A DNA stretch of 22,281 bases from a virus, in IMG/VR virus record IMGVR_UViG_3300030110_003523, positions 1 through 22,281 of that record; one strand, written 5' to 3'. The notes below the pieces were generated by a model, which was given only the letters and a program-made list of their open reading frames with translations, had not been told where the DNA came from and did no database searches. Within the stretch, counting starts at the first letter, position 1; the number at the start of each line of letters is the position of its first letter. A program made the translations under genes and the position numbers. This document shows, piece by piece, positions 4,179 to 20,681 of this stretch.

Positions 4179-4387
4179 ACATTCCCCTGCGTAATAAAGT
4201 AATACACCACGGCAGCTAATTGCATTAACATACCACTTAAAACTGCCCAAAGTTTTACATCTAAGCCGTCTATGTCTTTTTGCATATGTGTTAAATGGTT
4301 GTTTTCAAGGCGATTTAATACCGCTTCAATAACAGAGACACGTTTATCTAAACTTTGTAAGGCTTCCTTTTCTTGCTTTGTTGCCAT
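4175..4387 (-). CDS. XhlA-like coiled-coil membrane protein
   Basis: A 70-residue protein with an N-terminal charged helical region (about residues 1-42, including SVIEAVLNRLENN and HMQKDIDGL) and one C-terminal membrane segment (about 46-66, WAVLSGMLMQLAAVVYYFI). This layout matches the hemolysin XhlA-type family of small phage membrane proteins, often associated with holins and endolysins. The start at 4387 is preferred over one four codons upstream because it gives a TAATG overlap and a GGAAG Shine-Dalgarno at good spacing. It is far from the main lysis set, so a role in lysis or at the membrane during infection is only inferred. Confidence 0.65.
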   Translation of the reverse strand: MATKQEKEALQSLDKRVSVIEAVLNRLENNHLTHMQKDIDGLDVKLWAVLSGMLMQLAAVVYYFITQGNV

Positions 4388-4683
4388 TAGCACTTCCACC
4401 TTTTTCTAGCTTGGCGCAAACGACTGTTGGGATTTTTAGCAGCTTTAGGAAACTTTTTCATTTGACCCGCAGAACGAGCGCAATACGACTTTCGTCGCTT
4501 CGCTGCTTTACTACCTTTTTTAACTTTTCCGGTAACTGCGGTTTGCAATTTACTGCCCGGATTAGCTTTTCGGTGCGCAGCTACGCCTTTTTTAGTCATG
4601 CCCGCCCCAGATTTAGTGGGGCGGTAGTTTGCGCCTTTACCTTTTGTAGTTCTTCTAATGGCAGTTTCTTTTTTACGAGCCAT
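4387..4683 (-). CDS. Basic phage protein, DUF6321-like
   Basis: A 98-residue, very basic protein. The C-terminal two thirds carry MTKKGVAAHRKANPGSKL, then a Lys-rich GKVKKGSKAAKRRKSYCARS segment, and end in NSRLRQARKRWKC. This pattern is shared by small proteins in many marine phages that I associate with DUF6321, although the family number is from memory. Two conserved Cys (SYCARS and the terminal RWKC) could bind metal or form a bond. It has an AGGGGG Shine-Dalgarno. Function is unknown; a nucleic-acid-binding structural role would fit the composition. Confidence 0.75.
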   Translation of the reverse strand: MARKKETAIRRTTKGKGANYRPTKSGAGMTKKGVAAHRKANPGSKLQTAVTGKVKKGSKAAKRRKSYCARSAGQMKKFPKAAKNPNSRLRQARKRWKC

Positions 4684-9146: not shown

Positions 9147-9593
9147 CTAAAGACTAAGAATATCGTCTGGGTCTGTGATAGTTGCAAGGATTTCGTCATC
9201 ATTTAAAATCCGAACCTCGCCACCCTCAATACGAAACCGAGAACCCGCATATCGGGCAAAAATTACCCAATCTTTTTCGCGGCACCACGGTCCTTCTGGA
9301 AATTTATCTAGGTCTTTGTAACAGAGAGAACCTTGTTTAACGACATAACCGACTACAGTCTGTATCTGGTCGTCATCCAAAAGTTTATTCGGAAGCACAA
9401 TACCGCCTTCCGTCATTTCTTTACCTCTATAGGGAAGAATTAACATGCGCCAGCCCGTAGGGTTTGGCATTCGTTCAAGAAGAGAACCTTCCATTGCTTC
9501 CGGGTCAAGGACCCGCTTTTCCGGCACCGTATATAAATCTTTAATGCCTTGTTCTGCCGCCTCTAAATCCAGCGACTCTGCTGCTTCAGTCAT
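9147..9593 (-). CDS. Phage GroES-like co-chaperonin
   Basis: A 148-residue protein that matches the GroES fold pattern after a 45-residue N-terminal extension. The core begins GWRMLILPYRGKE. It then shows the mobile loop TEGGIVLP (61-68), whose I-V-L tripeptide is the known GroEL contact in host GroES. The rest follows the GroES order: VVGYVVKQG, KDWVIFARYAG and EVRILNDDEILATI. It would replace or supplement host GroES so that GroEL can fold the capsid protein, as T4 gp31 does. It is encoded directly before the scaffold, has AGGAG upstream, and overlaps the preceding gene by eight bases. Confidence 0.85.
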   Translation of the reverse strand: MTEAAESLDLEAAEQGIKDLYTVPEKRVLDPEAMEGSLLERMPNPTGWRMLILPYRGKEMTEGGIVLPNKLLDDDQIQTVVGYVVKQGSLCYKDLDKFPEGPWCREKDWVIFARYAGSRFRIEGGEVRILNDDEILATITDPDDILSL

Positions 9594-12064: not shown

Positions 12065-14518
12065 TTAAAATCCTCGATTGGTTATGTCCTGCTGACGCAA
12101 TTTTTCACGTTCCATAGCAGAATCTATACGCGCCGCCGTCTGTTTTTCCTGACTAGCTAACCGTTGCTGAAATTCCTGTGATCTTTGGGCTGCTTTTTGT
12201 GTATCAAGCTGCAACTCTGCTTGTTCCTGTGCAATATCTGCTTGAACCTGTTGTTGCTTTAACGCAAGTTCCTGCTGCTTCAACTGCACCAACGGATCTG
12301 GACCTTGTTGACCACCACCCGCTATCTGTTCGCTGAGTTGTTTTAAATTCTGCATTTCCTGCGCAATCATCTGCGCGGTCACCGATTGTAACTCTATTAC
12401 TTGTTCATCCGTTAATTGCTGTCCCTGCGTCTGTTGCATAAACTGCACCACCGCCATTTCATTCGCTTTTATCTGCACATGTTCTAATACGTGCTTTTGT
12501 AGCGCTCCGGCCACTCCCGGCGACTGCATTACCATGCCAGAAGCCCCAAAGGTTAAATGCGCCATAATATGTGCGTCGTGGTTTTGACCTTCAAACGCCT
12601 TTAACTGCGTACCTTCCAAAGCATCTATGTTTTCCTGCGCAGGGTCTTTCGGCACGGGGTCTTCGGTAGATTGCGGACGTAATAGCTTATCAACATCCCT
12701 GACCCCGAGCGCATCATACATCCTGCGATATGCCTCGTAAATATCATGTATTTCGGGAGCTTGCATTGCCAGTTGCATCTGCGTCTGGGCCAGAGAAATA
12801 CGCTGTGCCTGTGAAAATATGTTCGGGTTAGATACAGGTACTACATCAACGCGATCATCAAAATCCTGTTGCATGACGGCTTGATCGCCGCCTTCTACAG
12901 AATATGGATATATAGGCGGTAACGATTCGGACATAACCCGAGCTAACAACTTAAATTCCATCTTCATGGCGTAATGCAGGCGTTTATGCACGGCACTCAT
13001 TACCCGCGATCCCTGTTCCAGCATAGCAACCGTAGTACCTACTGCCGCTTGCTGATTACCATCACCAACCTTTAAATCGGTAATGGTGGCAAACCGTTGA
13101 CCTGCTTCTACTACAAACCCTAACAACTGAAATAGGGTAGAATCTGGACCTTTAAAAGGCAAAGGCATCAGACTATCTCGTATAGCACCACCGGGAGCGT
13201 CTATATCCCGAAATTCTCCGGGCTGAATTGGCTCGGCATCGTCCCTAATCCGTAAGCCACGGGCTTTAAATCCGGCGGGGAGGTTACTGAGAGTGCCAGC
13301 ATCTATAAGCTGGCGAAGGGCCGCTGTAGCGGTACGTGAAAGGCCCCCAATGGTGTGAATAAGCCCAAGTCCGTAAAAACCAAACCCCGGCAAAAACTTA
13401 TAATGAACAAAATATTGAATCTTGCGTTGTAGTTCGTCGTCCGCGTTGTAATTACGGCGGATAGCTAACACCTGACCGTTATCCTCGGAAATGGTTACCA
13501 CATAAGGTACTTTGATACCTGTGGGTTCGCCTTCCCCGTCACTCTCTTCAAATCCGGCTAAATCAAGGTCAACATGACATTCCAGCAACGTACAGTCATA
13601 GTCTATGTTTGTAGATTGGACCCCTTCAATGCGATCCATCTCACTACCTATCGAAGTGTGGTCTTCTGCCTGCGACGGCAACACGTTTACATCAAGGTAA
13701 AATCCCGATAATTGCTTTTTACGCAACTCGTTTAAAGGCATTTTTAAAACTTGTGTTACGTTCGGACAACTTTCAATGTCATTTGCTTCGTAGGGAACCA
13801 CTAAATGTTCCGCAGGAACAAATTTACTGACGGCTCGATCCAAGGTGCCGTCGTAATATACTTTTTTAAAGGTGGAACCTGCCAAAGGCAAATAAAACAG
13901 CATCTGATCGAATTCCGGGGTGTATTCCTCCATCACATTCGTGATGTAGTAATTCATAAATTCCTTGACACGCTTTGCCTGATCTTCTTTTTCCTTGGAC
14001 TTTTCGCCCATGACCGCTGTTCTTACCGGTCCTCCCGCAGGCAAAAGTTCGTTAAATGCCTGTGCTTGAAACTGTGTAGCGGCTTCCGCCAGCAAGGGAT
14101 GGGTTACGCCCGTCGCACCCCTAAAAGGCTCCGTTCTTTCCTCGTAGGTAAAACCAAGCAGTTCAAGACCGTTCGCATACGCATCTTCCCAATCTTTGCG
14201 GGAAGACTTGTTGGCTTCAAAATCGCCTAGAAGTTCTGATGCAACCCTGCCTAATTCCCTGTCGTCCAGTTCCTCGGCTAGGTTTCTAAAAAAATCGCCT
14301 TCATCAGGCGCGTTTGAGGCTGTAGGGTCAAAATCAATAATAACCCCGCCGTCTTCGGAGGATTCAATCTCAATGCCTTCCGGTAATTCAGGTGTGCCAC
14401 CCACAAGTGTACCGGGAGCCGCGATCTCTATATCAAGCTCCAAATCCTCTGCTGAATCGTTCGTGCTTCCCTGACGTGCCATTAAGGAAGCTAACGTTGC
14501 TTTGTCTCCGTTTGCCAT
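12065..14518 (-). CDS. Portal protein, SU10-type
   Basis: An 817-residue protein matching the portal family of SU10-like podoviruses. The N-terminal 80 residues are acidic and probably disordered. The body contains PFRGATGVTHPLLAEAATQF (about 131-150), FNELLPAGGPVRTAV, LAGSTFKKVYYDGTLDR and PGFGFYGLGLIHTIGGLSR. The last 130 residues are Gln-rich with a coiled coil (LKQQELALKQQQVQADIAQE), which may form the barrel that projects into the head. Twelve subunits would form the DNA entry ring and bind the terminase. GGAGGA precedes the ATG. The assignment is supported by pattern and by its place between terminase and scaffold. Confidence 0.88.
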   Translation of the reverse strand: MANGDKATLASLMARQGSTNDSAEDLELDIEIAAPGTLVGGTPELPEGIEIESSEDGGVIIDFDPTASNAPDEGDFFRNLAEELDDRELGRVASELLGDFEANKSSRKDWEDAYANGLELLGFTYEERTEPFRGATGVTHPLLAEAATQFQAQAFNELLPAGGPVRTAVMGEKSKEKEDQAKRVKEFMNYYITNVMEEYTPEFDQMLFYLPLAGSTFKKVYYDGTLDRAVSKFVPAEHLVVPYEANDIESCPNVTQVLKMPLNELRKKQLSGFYLDVNVLPSQAEDHTSIGSEMDRIEGVQSTNIDYDCTLLECHVDLDLAGFEESDGEGEPTGIKVPYVVTISEDNGQVLAIRRNYNADDELQRKIQYFVHYKFLPGFGFYGLGLIHTIGGLSRTATAALRQLIDAGTLSNLPAGFKARGLRIRDDAEPIQPGEFRDIDAPGGAIRDSLMPLPFKGPDSTLFQLLGFVVEAGQRFATITDLKVGDGNQQAAVGTTVAMLEQGSRVMSAVHKRLHYAMKMEFKLLARVMSESLPPIYPYSVEGGDQAVMQQDFDDRVDVVPVSNPNIFSQAQRISLAQTQMQLAMQAPEIHDIYEAYRRMYDALGVRDVDKLLRPQSTEDPVPKDPAQENIDALEGTQLKAFEGQNHDAHIMAHLTFGASGMVMQSPGVAGALQKHVLEHVQIKANEMAVVQFMQQTQGQQLTDEQVIELQSVTAQMIAQEMQNLKQLSEQIAGGGQQGPDPLVQLKQQELALKQQQVQADIAQEQAELQLDTQKAAQRSQEFQQRLASQEKQTAARIDSAMEREKLRQQDITNRGF

Positions 14519-14537: not shown

Positions 14538-17252
14538 CTATGCTACAGCACCGGAGTGCATATTCCTAGCTATTTGAGCCAGTGACGCCATGCCCCGTGG
14601 GCGGTGGTTCATGTCCCGCGCCACAGAAGCAAGAGAAGACACGCCGCCACCCGATTGAAACTTAGATAACGGTTTTTGAGTAAACGCTTCTTTCATTTTT
14701 TCTGTAAGCGGTAAATACCAAACCATGTGTCCTCGGGTCGGTTCCTTCGTGGCCGTGTTTCGCTGGGGTATTTCCAGTTTTTTAAGCTCCACGCCGTATT
14801 TTTTTGCAATTTCTTTTGCGTGGTTTTTAATAATACCATCGTAAGCTGTAAAGTCTGTACCGGGGTAACGCAAATTTTGAATAGCATCGGGGGTAAAGGC
14901 TAACCCGTCTTTATTATTTACCGACGCTTCCTGAACCATTCTGTCAAAAGAAAGTTGCATCCAGTTATTTTTAAAAGGGGCGTCTGGCACTGCAAAACTA
15001 CCTTGATCTTCTCTAAAATATTTACCTACCCACCCCCGTGGATTAAACCACCTGTCGTTTTCTATTCGATACGCCGACTCTTTAAACAATTTAGTCAGTT
15101 CCGGGGCTTCTTTACGAAATATACTAACCTTTTCGTTATCTACTGCTTTATCGTAAGCGTCAGTTCCTATGCTTAACGTGGGCTTTTTTTCAGCAACGTT
15201 TTTTAGTGCTTTTCGCTGAAACTGTTCACGGCTCATTGGAAGCCGGTCGGCTGATCTAGGTTCGTTTATAAAATCTAAAATCAAAGATTTTTCAAAATTA
15301 CGCGCTTTTTGGTGCCAATCTGACTGAATCTCTTCTATATACAAAGCGTCAAACAATTTATCCTTTTTACCTTTAACTTCTTCCAATAATACGCGGTCGT
15401 TATAGCGTATGTGCGAAAAAGTATTGTCCGCAATATGATAATGATCTTCTTTAAAAGGTATGCCACTTAACGGGTCTGTTTCCGTGGACAACGCTAATAA
15501 TTTTAAGTTTTTAGGGGGTTCCACTAATTCACTATAATGTTCGATACCAAGCGTATCTCGTATATCGTAAAGTTGCCGAGCTTGCGTTACATACTCACTG
15601 TCCTCCATGTTGTAGTCCACATCTTCCTTATTACTAGAAAGAAATTTTTCTCTAATTGGAACCGAGTTTTTTTCTATGTAACGAGCAACCTCGCTGGGTG
15701 TTACCCTAGTTTTTTCATCAAAGGCTTCTTTTAACACCTCTATTAACTCTTCTTCCGGCAAATCACGGGCAAGCTCATAAGCGTCGTCGCTTACCCCAAT
15801 CCGAGAAAGAGGTTTTAAGGCTTCCGAAGTCACGCCTTTTATCCCTTTTTTCGTCGCAGTGCTTTTTATTTTGTTTAGTAACTGATCCAAAGGCTGCTTT
15901 TGATCTTTCATTCCACGTAATACCATTAACACAGGTGATTCATACGCCCCTATGTTTTCATTAACTGGAACATCGCCAAGTAATTGACCAAAATTTAGTG
16001 GAAAACGATTAAAAACGTCAGGTTGTGTGTAAGCGTCTATTAATTTTTTTAAATAATTGTCCTTGGCTTCTTTAAATTTTTCTGGACTACCACCTAAAAT
16101 GGTTGAAAATTCGTCATCTTGAGCTTCTTGCATCTGACTTATGTGATAACCTAAACCTAAACTGTTCGCAGGGTCACGTCGAGTTCCAATATCCGGTGTG
16201 CCTGCTATCAACGCTTTTTCTCTTGCTTGCATTTCAGCAAGGTCTTTAAAATCGTCTACGTTTATCTTCGGGCTTTCTATGCCTTGCCGTTCAACCGCAG
16301 CCCGAGAGGAGAAACGTCCGGGTTCGTATTGTTCTTTTAAAAATTTTTCTTGGTTTCGTATGGCTTCTTTTATGTTGGCTAAACCGGTGTCAGGGGCTTG
16401 CGTCGAAACAGGCGGTACAAAGCCCTCTTTTGCACTAATATGCGATTGAAGTGCAGATAATATATCCCTAGTAAGCACTTTTTTTGATACGTCACTACTG
16501 TACGGGCTGCGCTTTAAAAAAATTGTGCCGCCTTCTAAAAAAACGTCGGATTTTGGAGCAAATTTTTTGGAATCGTCAGTGTAGGTTATTTTAAGGTTTT
16601 TTAATTCGGGATACGCCGCAAACCCTTCAGGCCAATCTATAAAATCCTTAACTTTACCTGCCCGGACTTTTTGAGGAAGATCGCTTTCAAAATCTTCTCT
16701 CATTTTTACTTTAGCGTTAAGCGCTTTATCGTCTATTTTAAAATTGTCTAGCGGTATAATTGTTCCCAACTTATCTTCAAGCAAACGCAATTGGCCTGTT
16801 TGTTCAAACACTTCTTCATCAGGTACGCCTCGTCTTATTTTTGTTGCGGCTTCGGCAATTTTTTCTTTAGGCGCGTTTTTTGCTTTTATTCCTGCCATCA
16901 TCGCCAACGTAGGTGCGACTACATCCGCGCCTATGCCCGCTACATCCCCAACCCCACCAACTACGTCCAGTGCCGCAAACGTGGATTCTAAAGGCGTGGA
17001 CTTTTGTCCATAACCCAACCGAGTCAGGTACGGGCCAATGCCCGCTACCGGGTCTACCAAAGACAATAAAGGTTTTTCTTGTTCCAGATAACGCGAAAAA
17101 CTTTCCAATCCTTGTCCTATTTTAGCTACCGTCGGATAACGGGGAGCCTCTATACGGCTTGTTTCTTCGGGGAAAATCTGACTGTAATAATCCGTCGGAT
17201 CGTCAATGCGGGATTGTAGTTCTTGCTCCAAGTTTGTACGGGTATCAGCCAT
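14538..17252 (-). CDS. Large polyvalent-type protein with degenerate peptidase-like domain
   Basis: A 904-residue protein. A Gly/Ala-rich hydrophobic stretch lies at about 90-122. Residues 137-280 resemble a phage polyvalent domain (I believe LPD23): GVPDEEVFEQTG, EGFAAYPELKNL, then a helix where relatives have an HExxH-like site. Here it reads ILSALQSHISAKEGF (264-278), so zinc binding looks lost. Residues 603-860 match another phage-associated region with HIRYNDR, IEEIQSDWHQKARNF, VPDAPFKNNW and AKKYGVELKKLEI. The tail carries FQSGGGVSSLASVARDM. Polyvalent proteins are thought to enter the host with phage DNA and counter defences. The start overlaps the previous gene by eight bases. Confidence 0.7.
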   Translation of the reverse strand: MADTRTNLEQELQSRIDDPTDYYSQIFPEETSRIEAPRYPTVAKIGQGLESFSRYLEQEKPLLSLVDPVAGIGPYLTRLGYGQKSTPLESTFAALDVVGGVGDVAGIGADVVAPTLAMMAGIKAKNAPKEKIAEAATKIRRGVPDEEVFEQTGQLRLLEDKLGTIIPLDNFKIDDKALNAKVKMREDFESDLPQKVRAGKVKDFIDWPEGFAAYPELKNLKITYTDDSKKFAPKSDVFLEGGTIFLKRSPYSSDVSKKVLTRDILSALQSHISAKEGFVPPVSTQAPDTGLANIKEAIRNQEKFLKEQYEPGRFSSRAAVERQGIESPKINVDDFKDLAEMQAREKALIAGTPDIGTRRDPANSLGLGYHISQMQEAQDDEFSTILGGSPEKFKEAKDNYLKKLIDAYTQPDVFNRFPLNFGQLLGDVPVNENIGAYESPVLMVLRGMKDQKQPLDQLLNKIKSTATKKGIKGVTSEALKPLSRIGVSDDAYELARDLPEEELIEVLKEAFDEKTRVTPSEVARYIEKNSVPIREKFLSSNKEDVDYNMEDSEYVTQARQLYDIRDTLGIEHYSELVEPPKNLKLLALSTETDPLSGIPFKEDHYHIADNTFSHIRYNDRVLLEEVKGKKDKLFDALYIEEIQSDWHQKARNFEKSLILDFINEPRSADRLPMSREQFQRKALKNVAEKKPTLSIGTDAYDKAVDNEKVSIFRKEAPELTKLFKESAYRIENDRWFNPRGWVGKYFREDQGSFAVPDAPFKNNWMQLSFDRMVQEASVNNKDGLAFTPDAIQNLRYPGTDFTAYDGIIKNHAKEIAKKYGVELKKLEIPQRNTATKEPTRGHMVWYLPLTEKMKEAFTQKPLSKFQSGGGVSSLASVARDMNHRPRGMASLAQIARNMHSGAVA

Positions 17253-19212
17253 AAAGCGTAGACATCACACCTGTCTGCATATCTGGATCAATCGCCATCT
17301 GCTTGCGAACGACACGCTCCTCCATGACATACTGGTTGTCCCGTGGGTCGCGTACCGTGCGCTCTGTTACGGTGACATCTCCGCCATGACCTAAACTAGC
17401 AACAAAATTAGGGCTTGCTGAAATCATAGCGTCTTGTTTTTCACGTAACTTTCTATTCATACCAAGAAACCCGTCACTTTGCGGTAAAGAATATCCGTAC
17501 ATAGCCGCTAGTTCTTCTACCGTAATTCCTTGCTCTGCCGCCATTTTTTCCCGCATCTTTTTATTTATTCCGAGAAAGCCATCGCTTTCAAAAAGTTTTG
17601 CGATGCTTCCTTGCTTTGGCATTTTTGCTTGAGTATCAATCTCGACTCTCGGGGCTATTGGGTCACCACCTTGGTTCATAGGCACGGGCATTGTTCCACG
17701 TGGAACAGCCATCGCCCGTTGTGCCAGCATTTTATTCACTGTGTCAGAACGTCGTTGCAAAAAAGATTCTATGCCTTGCCCCGTGACTTCTGAATCCACA
17801 TCGTTGTACATAGACGCTACACCACCGCCCCCGGCAAACAAGCCTTGTGCTTTTAACGCATCTCGCTGTGCTAATACCGAATCATCATACCGACGGCGGT
17901 CAAAAGAATTTAAAAACGCGGCTTGCTCCTCGGTCAGGTTTCCTGCGTCAGCTTGCTGCAACAAAAAGTCCATGTTTGCCGCTTGTTGTGCGCTAACCGC
18001 TGGAACTTGTTGCGCATCGAAAGACGACTGATATCCTCCTAACGCTTCAGCACCTGCGTCTCTGTTAAGTGCTGCGACATCAACCGTATTGCCAATACCA
18101 CTAACACCAATTCCACCTGTTTGACCTTGCGATGCCTGATACGCCATCAAAGCGTTGTACTGTTCTTCTGTTAACGTGGATTTATCGGGATTTGCCTGTT
18201 GCAAAAATTGCACACGACCGGGGTTGACTTGACCTAAAACACCTTCCTGCGCCCTGTTTAATAAAAAATCTAGGTTTTTGTTGCGTTCTGTAGCAAATTC
18301 TGAAACAGGTGGGGGCGGTTCGCCGCCACCGCCTTGATAACTTCCTACGTCAATATCACCGCTACTTCCCTGCGGGGTAAGATCCCCGCCGGCGGGAGCC
18401 ACCGGTGTTTCTGGACGAACGATAGAAGGTGTCGGCTCGGTCGGAGGTGTGTACGGATAACGGGTATTTAACAAGGTTCCTACGTTTTCATAAGGGTCTG
18501 TGCGTTCAAACGGCGCGTAGGGGTCGTATGTGTCATACACCGACGCCGGGTCGGCACGGTAAATAACATCCTCTGCTGTGTATTCCGGCTGACCGTAATA
18601 CGCACGAATAGTTTTTGGGGAGGCATCAAAAAGGGTTGTTTCGGGATTGTAAAATAAACCTACCCCCGGACTCTCCGACTCGCCACTATACCGGCTAGAG
18701 TTCTGGTTAAGAATATTTTCCGGTAGCTGCGACATTTGTTCGGGACTTAACCTTTGCCACATGCGCGTGTTGGGATCATAGTAAATAAACCGCGTATCTG
18801 CGCTGTTTGCGTCAAAAGCCGTGTTTTTATTGGGTCCACTATTTGTTAAGGGGGCGTCAACCCCATACCTATTTTTCGCCCACTCCCCTGTGTATTGATA
18901 TATATTACGTCCCGTGGAGTCTACCAAGCCTTCGCCTTGGTCCGAAAACCCCCAGAGGTCTATAATTTGATAATTGGTTTGTATGGTGTTTGGTGCTGCT
19001 CCAAACCTAGAGCCGGGTTGAGCTAATGTTTTATCTCCTGCGCCGCCCGAAGGGTTTTGCAAAGACAAGGAACTTCCCATAGGTCCCGTCATTCCCGATA
19101 AATTAAGTGGAATATCGTATTGCTGGGTGTCTGGGTTGTAATAATACACTTGCCCGTTAATAACTCTCGTTCCGCTGTCTCCCGTAATATTTGCTGTTCC
19201 CGGTCCTGCCAT
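17245..19212 (-). CDS. Low-complexity probable virion protein with internal repeats
   Basis: A 655-residue Gly/Pro/Gln/Tyr/Ser-rich protein, probably extended for most of its length. It has three repeats of the form (Y/F)Y(N/D)P(D/N/E)T followed by an aromatic residue (near 24, 144 and 187), two copies of N(L/M)DFLLx(R/Q)A (313 and 413), and two of SDGFLG(I/M)N(K/R)K(M/L)REK (543 and 579). GLFAGGGGVASMYNDV (458-472) resembles the C-terminus of the next gene product. No enzyme or membrane domain was recognised. Encoded between terminase and polyvalent protein, it may be an internal or ejected virion protein. Confidence 0.7.
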   Translation of the reverse strand: MAGPGTANITGDSGTRVINGQVYYYNPDTQQYDIPLNLSGMTGPMGSSLSLQNPSGGAGDKTLAQPGSRFGAAPNTIQTNYQIIDLWGFSDQGEGLVDSTGRNIYQYTGEWAKNRYGVDAPLTNSGPNKNTAFDANSADTRFIYYDPNTRMWQRLSPEQMSQLPENILNQNSSRYSGESESPGVGLFYNPETTLFDASPKTIRAYYGQPEYTAEDVIYRADPASVYDTYDPYAPFERTDPYENVGTLLNTRYPYTPPTEPTPSIVRPETPVAPAGGDLTPQGSSGDIDVGSYQGGGGEPPPPVSEFATERNKNLDFLLNRAQEGVLGQVNPGRVQFLQQANPDKSTLTEEQYNALMAYQASQGQTGGIGVSGIGNTVDVAALNRDAGAEALGGYQSSFDAQQVPAVSAQQAANMDFLLQQADAGNLTEEQAAFLNSFDRRRYDDSVLAQRDALKAQGLFAGGGGVASMYNDVDSEVTGQGIESFLQRRSDTVNKMLAQRAMAVPRGTMPVPMNQGGDPIAPRVEIDTQAKMPKQGSIAKLFESDGFLGINKKMREKMAAEQGITVEELAAMYGYSLPQSDGFLGMNRKLREKQDAMISASPNFVASLGHGGDVTVTERTVRDPRDNQYVMEERVVRKQMAIDPDMQTGVMSTLYG

Positions 19213-19217
19213 AATTT

Positions 19218-20681
19218 TTACCCGTAATAGACTCGTGGTGTTAGTGACATATCTTTATCTTCCCAATCGTCCGAAGGTAACTGTACAAAATTACCCTGAC
19301 GATATCTCATCAAAGCTTGGGTCGTGCTGTCCACCAAGTCGTCATGTTCCCCGTTAGGGAATGCAGCACATTCTTCTATGACCTCGTCCGCCCATGTTTC
19401 ATCGGGTGCCCAGATCATTCCGCTTTCAAAAAGCGGGGATACACTATGTACCCTTGACAACTTATCATTTCCTCGGCTCGGCGTAAAGTTTACCACAGGA
19501 ATTCCCATGTTGCGTAATTCGTGTGTCAAGGGCATTCCACTCGCCTTCGCTTCAATAATTACCGTTTCCGGTTCCCAAAAGTTATATTCTTCCAGCGCGA
19601 TGGTTTTTAATTCAGGAAATTCCCACCGACCTTTGCTCGATGCCAGCAAAATTAAATGCGCAACCGTACCTTCTTCCGGGTAAAACACACCCCACGTTGT
19701 GATCGCACTGTAGTCCGCTGTCTCCCGTTTTGAAAACGCCGTGTCATAACTTTGTATTACATACTCCAGTTGCGGGATTTCTGAGTGTTCCCACCGGTTC
19801 CACCACTCCCTTTTCAAAATACTGGCTTCTTCACTCGTGGGATTCTGCTGATACTGCGCATTCCATTTACTTAGTGGAATCGACGCTTTTACCGCCGTTA
19901 AGTCCTTTTTTGACCAGAATTCAGGCCAACAGGGGTCCCCAGACGGCATTTCCATAGGAAATTCGATCAATTCCCACTGGTCTGCCAAGGGATCTTTCAT
20001 CTGCGCACGCATCAATTGACCCGTTAAATCCTTCTCGGACCACCTTGTCATCACCAGAATAATGGTTCCACCGGGCTGTAGCCGCTGACGAGGACCACCT
20101 GTGTACCAATCCCATGCGTCATCAAAGCCTGCGTTGGACATTGCGGTCTGTTCCGAGTGCGGATCGTCAATAATAATCAAATCACCACCACGACCAGCGA
20201 GGTTTGAGCCAACGCCCACGGCATAATACATACCGCCCCTGCTGGTATCCCACCGCCCGGATGCCTTGGAATCCGCTGCAAGGCGCGTATTATCAAAAAT
20301 TTCCTGATATTCCTCGCGTTCCAACAGGTTTTTAACCTTTCTACCAAAGTTAACCGCAAGTTCCGTGGTGTGTGTCGCCTGAATTATCTTCATTGCGGGG
20401 TTTTTCCCTATCAACCATGCAGGGAACAGGAAGCTTGCAAACTCTGACTTGGTGTGTCGAGGCGGCATATTGACGATTAAACGCTTTACTTCGCCCTTGG
20501 CTACCCGTTCAAGCTTGTCTGCAATAACCTTATGGTGGTGCCCTGCAATGAACTCGGGCCACATGGCTCTGACAAAGGTCAAAAAACTATCTTGGCACGC
20601 TTCGAGGCGGCTTAACTGCGCCAAACGAAGCTCTAATTTGAGTCTTTTGTCTTCAATTTCTGGTGTTTCTACACGGCTCAT
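19218..20681 (-). CDS. terL: Terminase large subunit
   Basis: A 487-residue DNA packaging motor protein. The ATPase shows the Walker A-type loop MPPRHTKSE (72-80), Walker B LIIIDDP (168-174) and a coupling-type motif MTRW (211-214). The C-terminal nuclease shows acidic residues Asp313 in SYDTAF, Glu377 in VIIEAKASG and Asp447-Asp448 in EHDDLVD, as in the RNase H-like terminase nuclease. It docks on the portal, pumps DNA and cuts concatemers. It is the first gene of the late operon. AGGG lies seven bases before the ATG. No small terminase subunit gene was found in the window. Confidence 0.93.
   Translation of the reverse strand: MSRVETPEIEDKRLKLELRLAQLSRLEACQDSFLTFVRAMWPEFIAGHHHKVIADKLERVAKGEVKRLIVNMPPRHTKSEFASFLFPAWLIGKNPAMKIIQATHTTELAVNFGRKVKNLLEREEYQEIFDNTRLAADSKASGRWDTSRGGMYYAVGVGSNLAGRGGDLIIIDDPHSEQTAMSNAGFDDAWDWYTGGPRQRLQPGGTIILVMTRWSEKDLTGQLMRAQMKDPLADQWELIEFPMEMPSGDPCWPEFWSKKDLTAVKASIPLSKWNAQYQQNPTSEEASILKREWWNRWEHSEIPQLEYVIQSYDTAFSKRETADYSAITTWGVFYPEEGTVAHLILLASSKGRWEFPELKTIALEEYNFWEPETVIIEAKASGMPLTHELRNMGIPVVNFTPSRGNDKLSRVHSVSPLFESGMIWAPDETWADEVIEECAAFPNGEHDDLVDSTTQALMRYRQGNFVQLPSDDWEDKDMSLTPRVYYG

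Follow-up and report, generated by a model that had tools for sequence, protein, structure and literature searches.

The window, i.e., the entire 22,281-base virus record, comes from a marine-type phage and is probably a fragment. Its portal protein shares 54-59% identity with the portals of Phage DSL-LC04 and the Pelagibacter phages HTVC027P and HTVC023P. The gene studied here, P0001, occupies exactly positions 14538-17252 on the minus strand as an open frame with an ATG start. A first-pass annotation of this DNA had described a portal-adjacent gene at this place, which is real, and the peptides quoted in it are located in the product: GVPDEEVFEQTG at residues 142-153, EGFAAYPELKNL at 209-220, ILSALQSHISAKEGF at 264-278, IEEIQSDWHQ at 639-648, and VPDAPFKNNW at 755-764. 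The features of the locus are as follows.

14538..17252, minus strand: P0001 gene, 904-aa polyvalent-type protein (open frame, ATG; relative L001 93-94% identical)
16923..17252, minus strand: N-terminal region of P0001, residues 1-110 (from comparison with L001)
16773..16901, minus strand: LPD23-like segment, residues 118-160, containing GVPDEEVFEQTG (Pfam LPD23 score under the curated cutoff; the match to the HMM of intact relatives begins at residue 117)
16398..16772, minus strand: putative degenerate zincin-like domain, residues 161-285 (HMM of intact relatives, alignments, weak zincin matches of the model)
16419..16463, minus strand: former HExxHxxxxxE helix ILSALQSHISAKEGF, residues 264-278 (H, E, and H replaced; E of EGF retained)
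14670..15665, minus strand: predicted GNAT-fold domain, residues ~530-861, IEEIQSDWHQ to VPDAPFKNNW (family HMM, model, fold comparison, invariant residues)
14541..14651, minus strand: movable C-terminal tag, residues 868-904 (tag HMM, protein-level conservation)
17245..19212, minus strand: 655-aa ORF in the same slot, upstream of P0001 (no family match)
12065..14518, minus strand: portal gene, one border of the slot (phrog_1216 portal, 3.5e-57)
19218..20681, minus strand: terminase large subunit gene (terL), the other border (Terminase_6C and phrog_38)

P0001 is thus preceded by terL and the 655-aa ORF and followed by the genes for the portal, a GroES-like co-chaperonin, and the major head protein. 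The co-chaperonin gene (9147-9593, minus strand) lies within the head region, as it does in HTVC027P and DSL-LC04, and a 98-aa ORF of the structural region (4387-4683, minus strand) is very basic and rich in Lys and Arg, possibly DNA-binding. The 655-aa ORF is of low complexity and contains an internal FAGGGGVASMYND motif resembling the start of the tag; possibly it is another protein of the slot type represented by P0001. Full-length relatives of P0001 were not found among INPHARED phages or PLSDB plasmids, the protein has no match in PHROGs, and scans for promoters and terminators gave signals at or below chance. The description of the product as a polyvalent-type phage protein is borne out, as several unrelated domains are combined in one polypeptide encoded together with the portal and terminase genes.

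Judging from sequence comparisons, the portal-adjacent slot is hypervariable and exchangeable. Body homology of any kind between the proteins in the slot is found for 65 of 102 pairs of loci with portals at least 95% identical and for 111 of 1,314 pairs at 70-80% identity, counts made noisy by partial ORFs and small intervening genes. In the locus with the most similar portal (L082, 95.6% identical), the upstream gene is unrelated to P0001 and yet ends in YGGGVESLAHIARNMY. The relative L001 is 94% identical to P0001 over residues 111-904, while its N-terminal region is wholly different before residue ~117. In this locus (L001:3-2450, plus strand), the exchange point relative to the window is sharp and lies before MMAGIKAKN, at about residue 117.

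Residues 118-285 of P0001 are classified as an LPD23-associated zincin-like domain, an assignment that is mainly sequence-based because the structural matches of the model are weak. Intact relatives were retrieved by a DNA pattern for HEIQHAIQ, and the HMM built from 105 such domains matches P0001 over residues 117-234 with an i-Evalue of 5.5e-12; the profile of the intact family in turn reaches the solved zincin IrrE (E 1.1e-3). Members of this family match LPD23 (61 of 74), the putative metallopeptidase DUF6782 (41), Peptidase_M78 (14), and SprT-like (12). The LPD assignment suggested in the first-pass annotation is supported in part: despite the family matches, P0001 itself scores only 16.6-19.6 bits against LPD23 (PF18838), under the curated cutoff of 27. 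A predicted model of residues 85-305 (pLDDT 75) yielded no significant match with Foldseek, and VIA retrieved mainly zincins (6mdw, 4qhh, 2ejq, IrrE, YbeY, jannalysin, and others), weakly, at Z 2-4.

The homology between P0001 and the zincins of the LPD23 and DUF6782 type covers residues 117-234 and the following helix; what distinguishes P0001 is the replacement of H, E, and H of the HExxH motif throughout its clade, no member of which has the motif. Intact homologs read LLHEIQHAIQxxEGF at this place, matching the HE..HA..E pattern that the first-pass annotation gave for relatives, whereas in the aligned ILSALQSHISAKEGF of P0001 both histidines and the catalytic glutamate are lost, and the glutamine and the glutamate of EGF stay. 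The position of HExxH is taken by SALQS (residues 266-270), so the suspected loss of the metal site is confirmed. The same kind of replacement occurs in L084, L087, L100, L285, L286, L294, and others, with portals ~73-75% identical. All 12 distinct degenerate sequences contain A[LI]Q[SD][YH]xxxKEG[FL], and a scan of 3.1 million translated residues located this motif in 18 ORFs, every one of them within the zincin family of P0001.

The altered site goes together with a particular domain composition. When distinct zincin-containing ORFs are counted, 12 of 12 degenerate ones also carry a GNAT-like domain and the tag, while the site is intact in 24 tagged ORFs lacking the GNAT-like domain, in 115 ORFs with neither feature, and in two with the GNAT-like domain and no tag, the untagged intact set having been largely retrieved by its own motif. 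The tagged set was retrieved by portal and tag searches, so within it the comparison of intact and degenerate sites is not biased towards intact ones. In a maximum-likelihood tree, the degenerate sequences form one clade (100/97) nested in the clade of tagged zincins (98/90); details of the tree are rough, as the branches are long and the bootstrap had not settled. The alignment of homologs, which the first-pass annotation had proposed as a check on clade-wide loss, and the tree show a single loss of HExxH in the ancestor of the clade, among intact tagged relatives, and its fixation throughout the clade.

The putative zincin domain of P0001 looks maintained rather than decaying. P0001 and L001, a single pair with few changes, share 94% of residues 111-904 and give dN/dS values of 0.06 for the LPD23 segment, 0.26 for the zincin segment, 0.30 for the GNAT-like domain, 0.22 for the tag, and 0.93 for the linker. 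The zincin segment is thus under constraint, as would be expected of a maintained pseudo-peptidase. It is very unlikely that the domain is simply decaying and useless within an otherwise functional protein: although all three catalytic positions are substituted and the degenerate members share only ~25% identity, every member retains the new clade-specific motif, the frame is open in all of them, and dN/dS of the segment stays below 0.3 next to a near-neutral linker. The conservation of A[LI]Q[SD][YH]xxxKEG could also mean that the altered site has stayed functional by means of a different metal or reaction chemistry, using the Gln and Glu that remain together with the new Asp or Ser, His or Tyr, and Lys. 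This is highly improbable, since the putative new ligands vary within the clade (S or D, H or Y) and, to our knowledge, no zincin is functional without both histidines. The maintained but inactive domain would rather serve as a binding or folding module.

The second region, described in the first-pass annotation as recurring in phages, is indeed widespread: at least 502 IMG/VR viral stretches contain it, as do 47 loci from assemblies of bacteria and archaea. Homology detected by the family HMM spans residues 507-883 of P0001, and 90 ORFs of the loci retrieved first contain the region. No family in Pfam or NCBIfam covers it, and no Pfam GNAT family is among the member matches shown. The region falls inside phrog_7348, labelled endolysin, at positions ~1750-2070; proteins that match this group only there may be mis-named lysins.

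The AlphaFold2 model of the domain was built from 61 sequences and reaches a mean pLDDT of 69, with values above 90 in the best core blocks. Its secondary-structure elements follow the GNAT order, and a long insert of helices comes after strand 4. In the Foldseek check proposed earlier for both regions, no E-value was significant, but the top matches of this model were mostly GNATs (best E 0.11). The best 50 entries retrieved by VIA were all GNAT or GNAT-like, at Z 7.5-8.9 over ~118-145 residues. The order of strands and helices is that of known GNAT acyltransferases, such as the tRNA-acetylating toxins AtaT and TacT, NatD, and GCN5 (Z up to 8.9), from which P0001 differs in the long insert, in lacking a Pfam GNAT match, and in having no recognizable R/QxxGxG/A, the acetyl-CoA loop that inspection did not reveal between strand 4 and helix 3. 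As this canonical loop is not visible, the region is named a GNAT-fold domain, an assignment of residues ~530-865 made with moderate confidence from the model. The family keeps strictly conserved polar residues, and all nine family-invariant residues are present in P0001; acyltransferase activity is inferred from the predicted fold.

The last ~37 residues of P0001, GGGVxSLxxxARNM..RGxxSLxxxARNM, consist of two GG/RG-x-x-SL-x-x-x-AR[ND]M repeats. This tag was recognized when the gene upstream of the portal was read at 80 loci, where proteins with different bodies proved to have similar ends, and the HMM built from these ends matches P0001 at 2.3e-14. In the retrieved set, it identifies 119 tagged ORFs, whereas reversed or shuffled copies give none above 15 bits. 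In 96 of them, the tag is no more than nine residues away from the C-terminus, and in the others it is internal or near the N-terminus; six ORFs have two copies. The collection was scanned for the tag by a DNA pattern favoring the subtype ARNMxRGPRG[VI], and the counts of tagged ORFs therefore do not represent a complete survey. A tblastn search of INPHARED with the tag consensus gave nothing convincing. Both this movable tag, which is new beyond the finding of the first-pass annotation, and the GNAT-fold modelling were absent from it.

Many of the 119 tagged proteins have unrelated bodies. Single-linkage clustering merged most of the bodies into one component because domains are shared pairwise, and the claim is therefore confined to pairs without detectable body homology (n = 2,619), for which the median pS of the tag is 0.64 and the median pN 0.36. 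With silent sites near saturation and fewer amino acid changes, it is the peptide of the tag that is conserved. These values also bear on the view that the tag is a leftover of recombination, in which exchange points just before the conserved portal gene leave unrelated genes with a shared 3' end. Some pairs do share recent tag DNA (e.g., L087 and L097, pS 0.18), and the nucleotide identity of L082 to the window starts inside the tag. Such a leftover is nevertheless unlikely: most pairs are near silent saturation with the peptide retained, internal, N-terminus-proximal, and duplicated tags exist as well, and some of the genes that carry the tag (L086, L089, and L090) are not neighbors of the portal gene.

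Other features of the tagged proteins were noted. L160:595-3600 and L098:3-4994 (both plus strand) have one tag mid-protein and one at the end, like two fused units of tagged cargo. Peptides of the form [FYK]AxGGx[VE] recur between the domains of tagged proteins (L098:3-4994, plus strand; L343:9560-11797 and L359:4744-7782, minus strand); their density outside the tag exceeds that in shuffled versions of these proteins by a factor of ~7, and they could be linkers or processing sites. A hydrophobic segment as membrane-translocation element was considered and rejected, as strongly hydrophobic windows are rarer in the tagged proteins (15%) than in shuffles (34%).

Domains identified in 69 tagged proteins include ART-PolyVal (10), transglycosylase SLT (8), DUF6782 (5), DUF6884 (3), and ParB_N (1), as is typical of polyvalent proteins and of internal virion proteins. 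Matches to phrog_342, an internal virion protein with an endolysin domain, occur in some tagged relatives. In HTVC028P, a gene with the GNAT-like domain lies between genes named 'internal protein A' and 'internal virion protein', names that come from the depositors' annotation only. In the literature on HTVC023P-type phages and HTVC027P, neither virion proteomics for any member nor mention of a P0001-type gene was found. The tag common to unrelated proteins of the same slot is the best, albeit indirect, pointer to a role in delivery.

With somewhat better than even confidence, P0001 is interpreted as a modular, exchangeable polyvalent cargo that probably enters the virion close to the portal and accompanies the DNA on delivery, with a tag for loading, a dead zincin, and a GNAT-fold effector. 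The tag would act as an address directing cargo to the head interior or to the portal, and the GNAT-fold domain would be the active effector that modifies some macromolecule of the host early in infection. The tag could also have a role other than loading. The broader proposal, that a short movable tag loads many unrelated effectors from a portal-side cassette and that one clade keeps an inactivated zincin as a module without metal next to a GNAT-fold effector lacking annotation, is tentative, its chances being put slightly below even. A position in the head and packaging gene block next to the portal, and two domains without canonical catalytic or cofactor motifs, would also suit a protein that never enters the cell and takes part in head structure or assembly, as a scaffold, connector, or chaperone-like factor whose GNAT-like and zincin-like folds are inert. 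Such a role is quite unlikely in view of the unrelated bodies that the hypervariable slot holds in near-identical phages, the ART, SLT, and intact zincin domains of tagged relatives, and the strictly conserved polar residues retained in the GNAT-like domain.

The delivered-cargo reading has parallels in known systems. In the available text of Iyer et al. (2017, PMC5512222), polyvalent proteins resemble P0001 as large multidomain proteins of the portal and terminase region that combine zincin-type, LPD23-like, and protein-modifying folds; P0001 differs in a zincin that is inactive by sequence and in a GNAT-like domain outside the two RimI-like GNAT families described there, and that text makes no mention of a movable C-terminal tag linking unrelated cargo. 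The ejection proteins gp14-16 of T7 (reviewed in PMC8954989) are likewise large, fast-varying, and encoded in the head and portal module, and their transglycosylase domains are paralleled in some tagged relatives, but no sequence relation to P0001 was found. In the broader proposal, the tag would be the counterpart of the constant part that polymorphic toxins use for trafficking.

Fixation of the HExxH loss shows that polyvalent zincin-type domains can persist without proteolysis. This bears on the self-processing hypothesis, set out in the available text of Iyer et al. (PMC5512222), that active zincins may process the polyvalent polypeptide: with a dead zincin, the clade of P0001 could not process its polypeptide by means of that domain. 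The EIQSDW GNAT-fold domain is widespread in viral and cellular sequences and yet without a family in the domain databases. Should the tag prove to be a loading signal, it would provide a handle for testing how the heads of short-tailed phages choose their cargo, and for many uncultured marine phages the candidates for delivered effectors could be listed from sequence alone.
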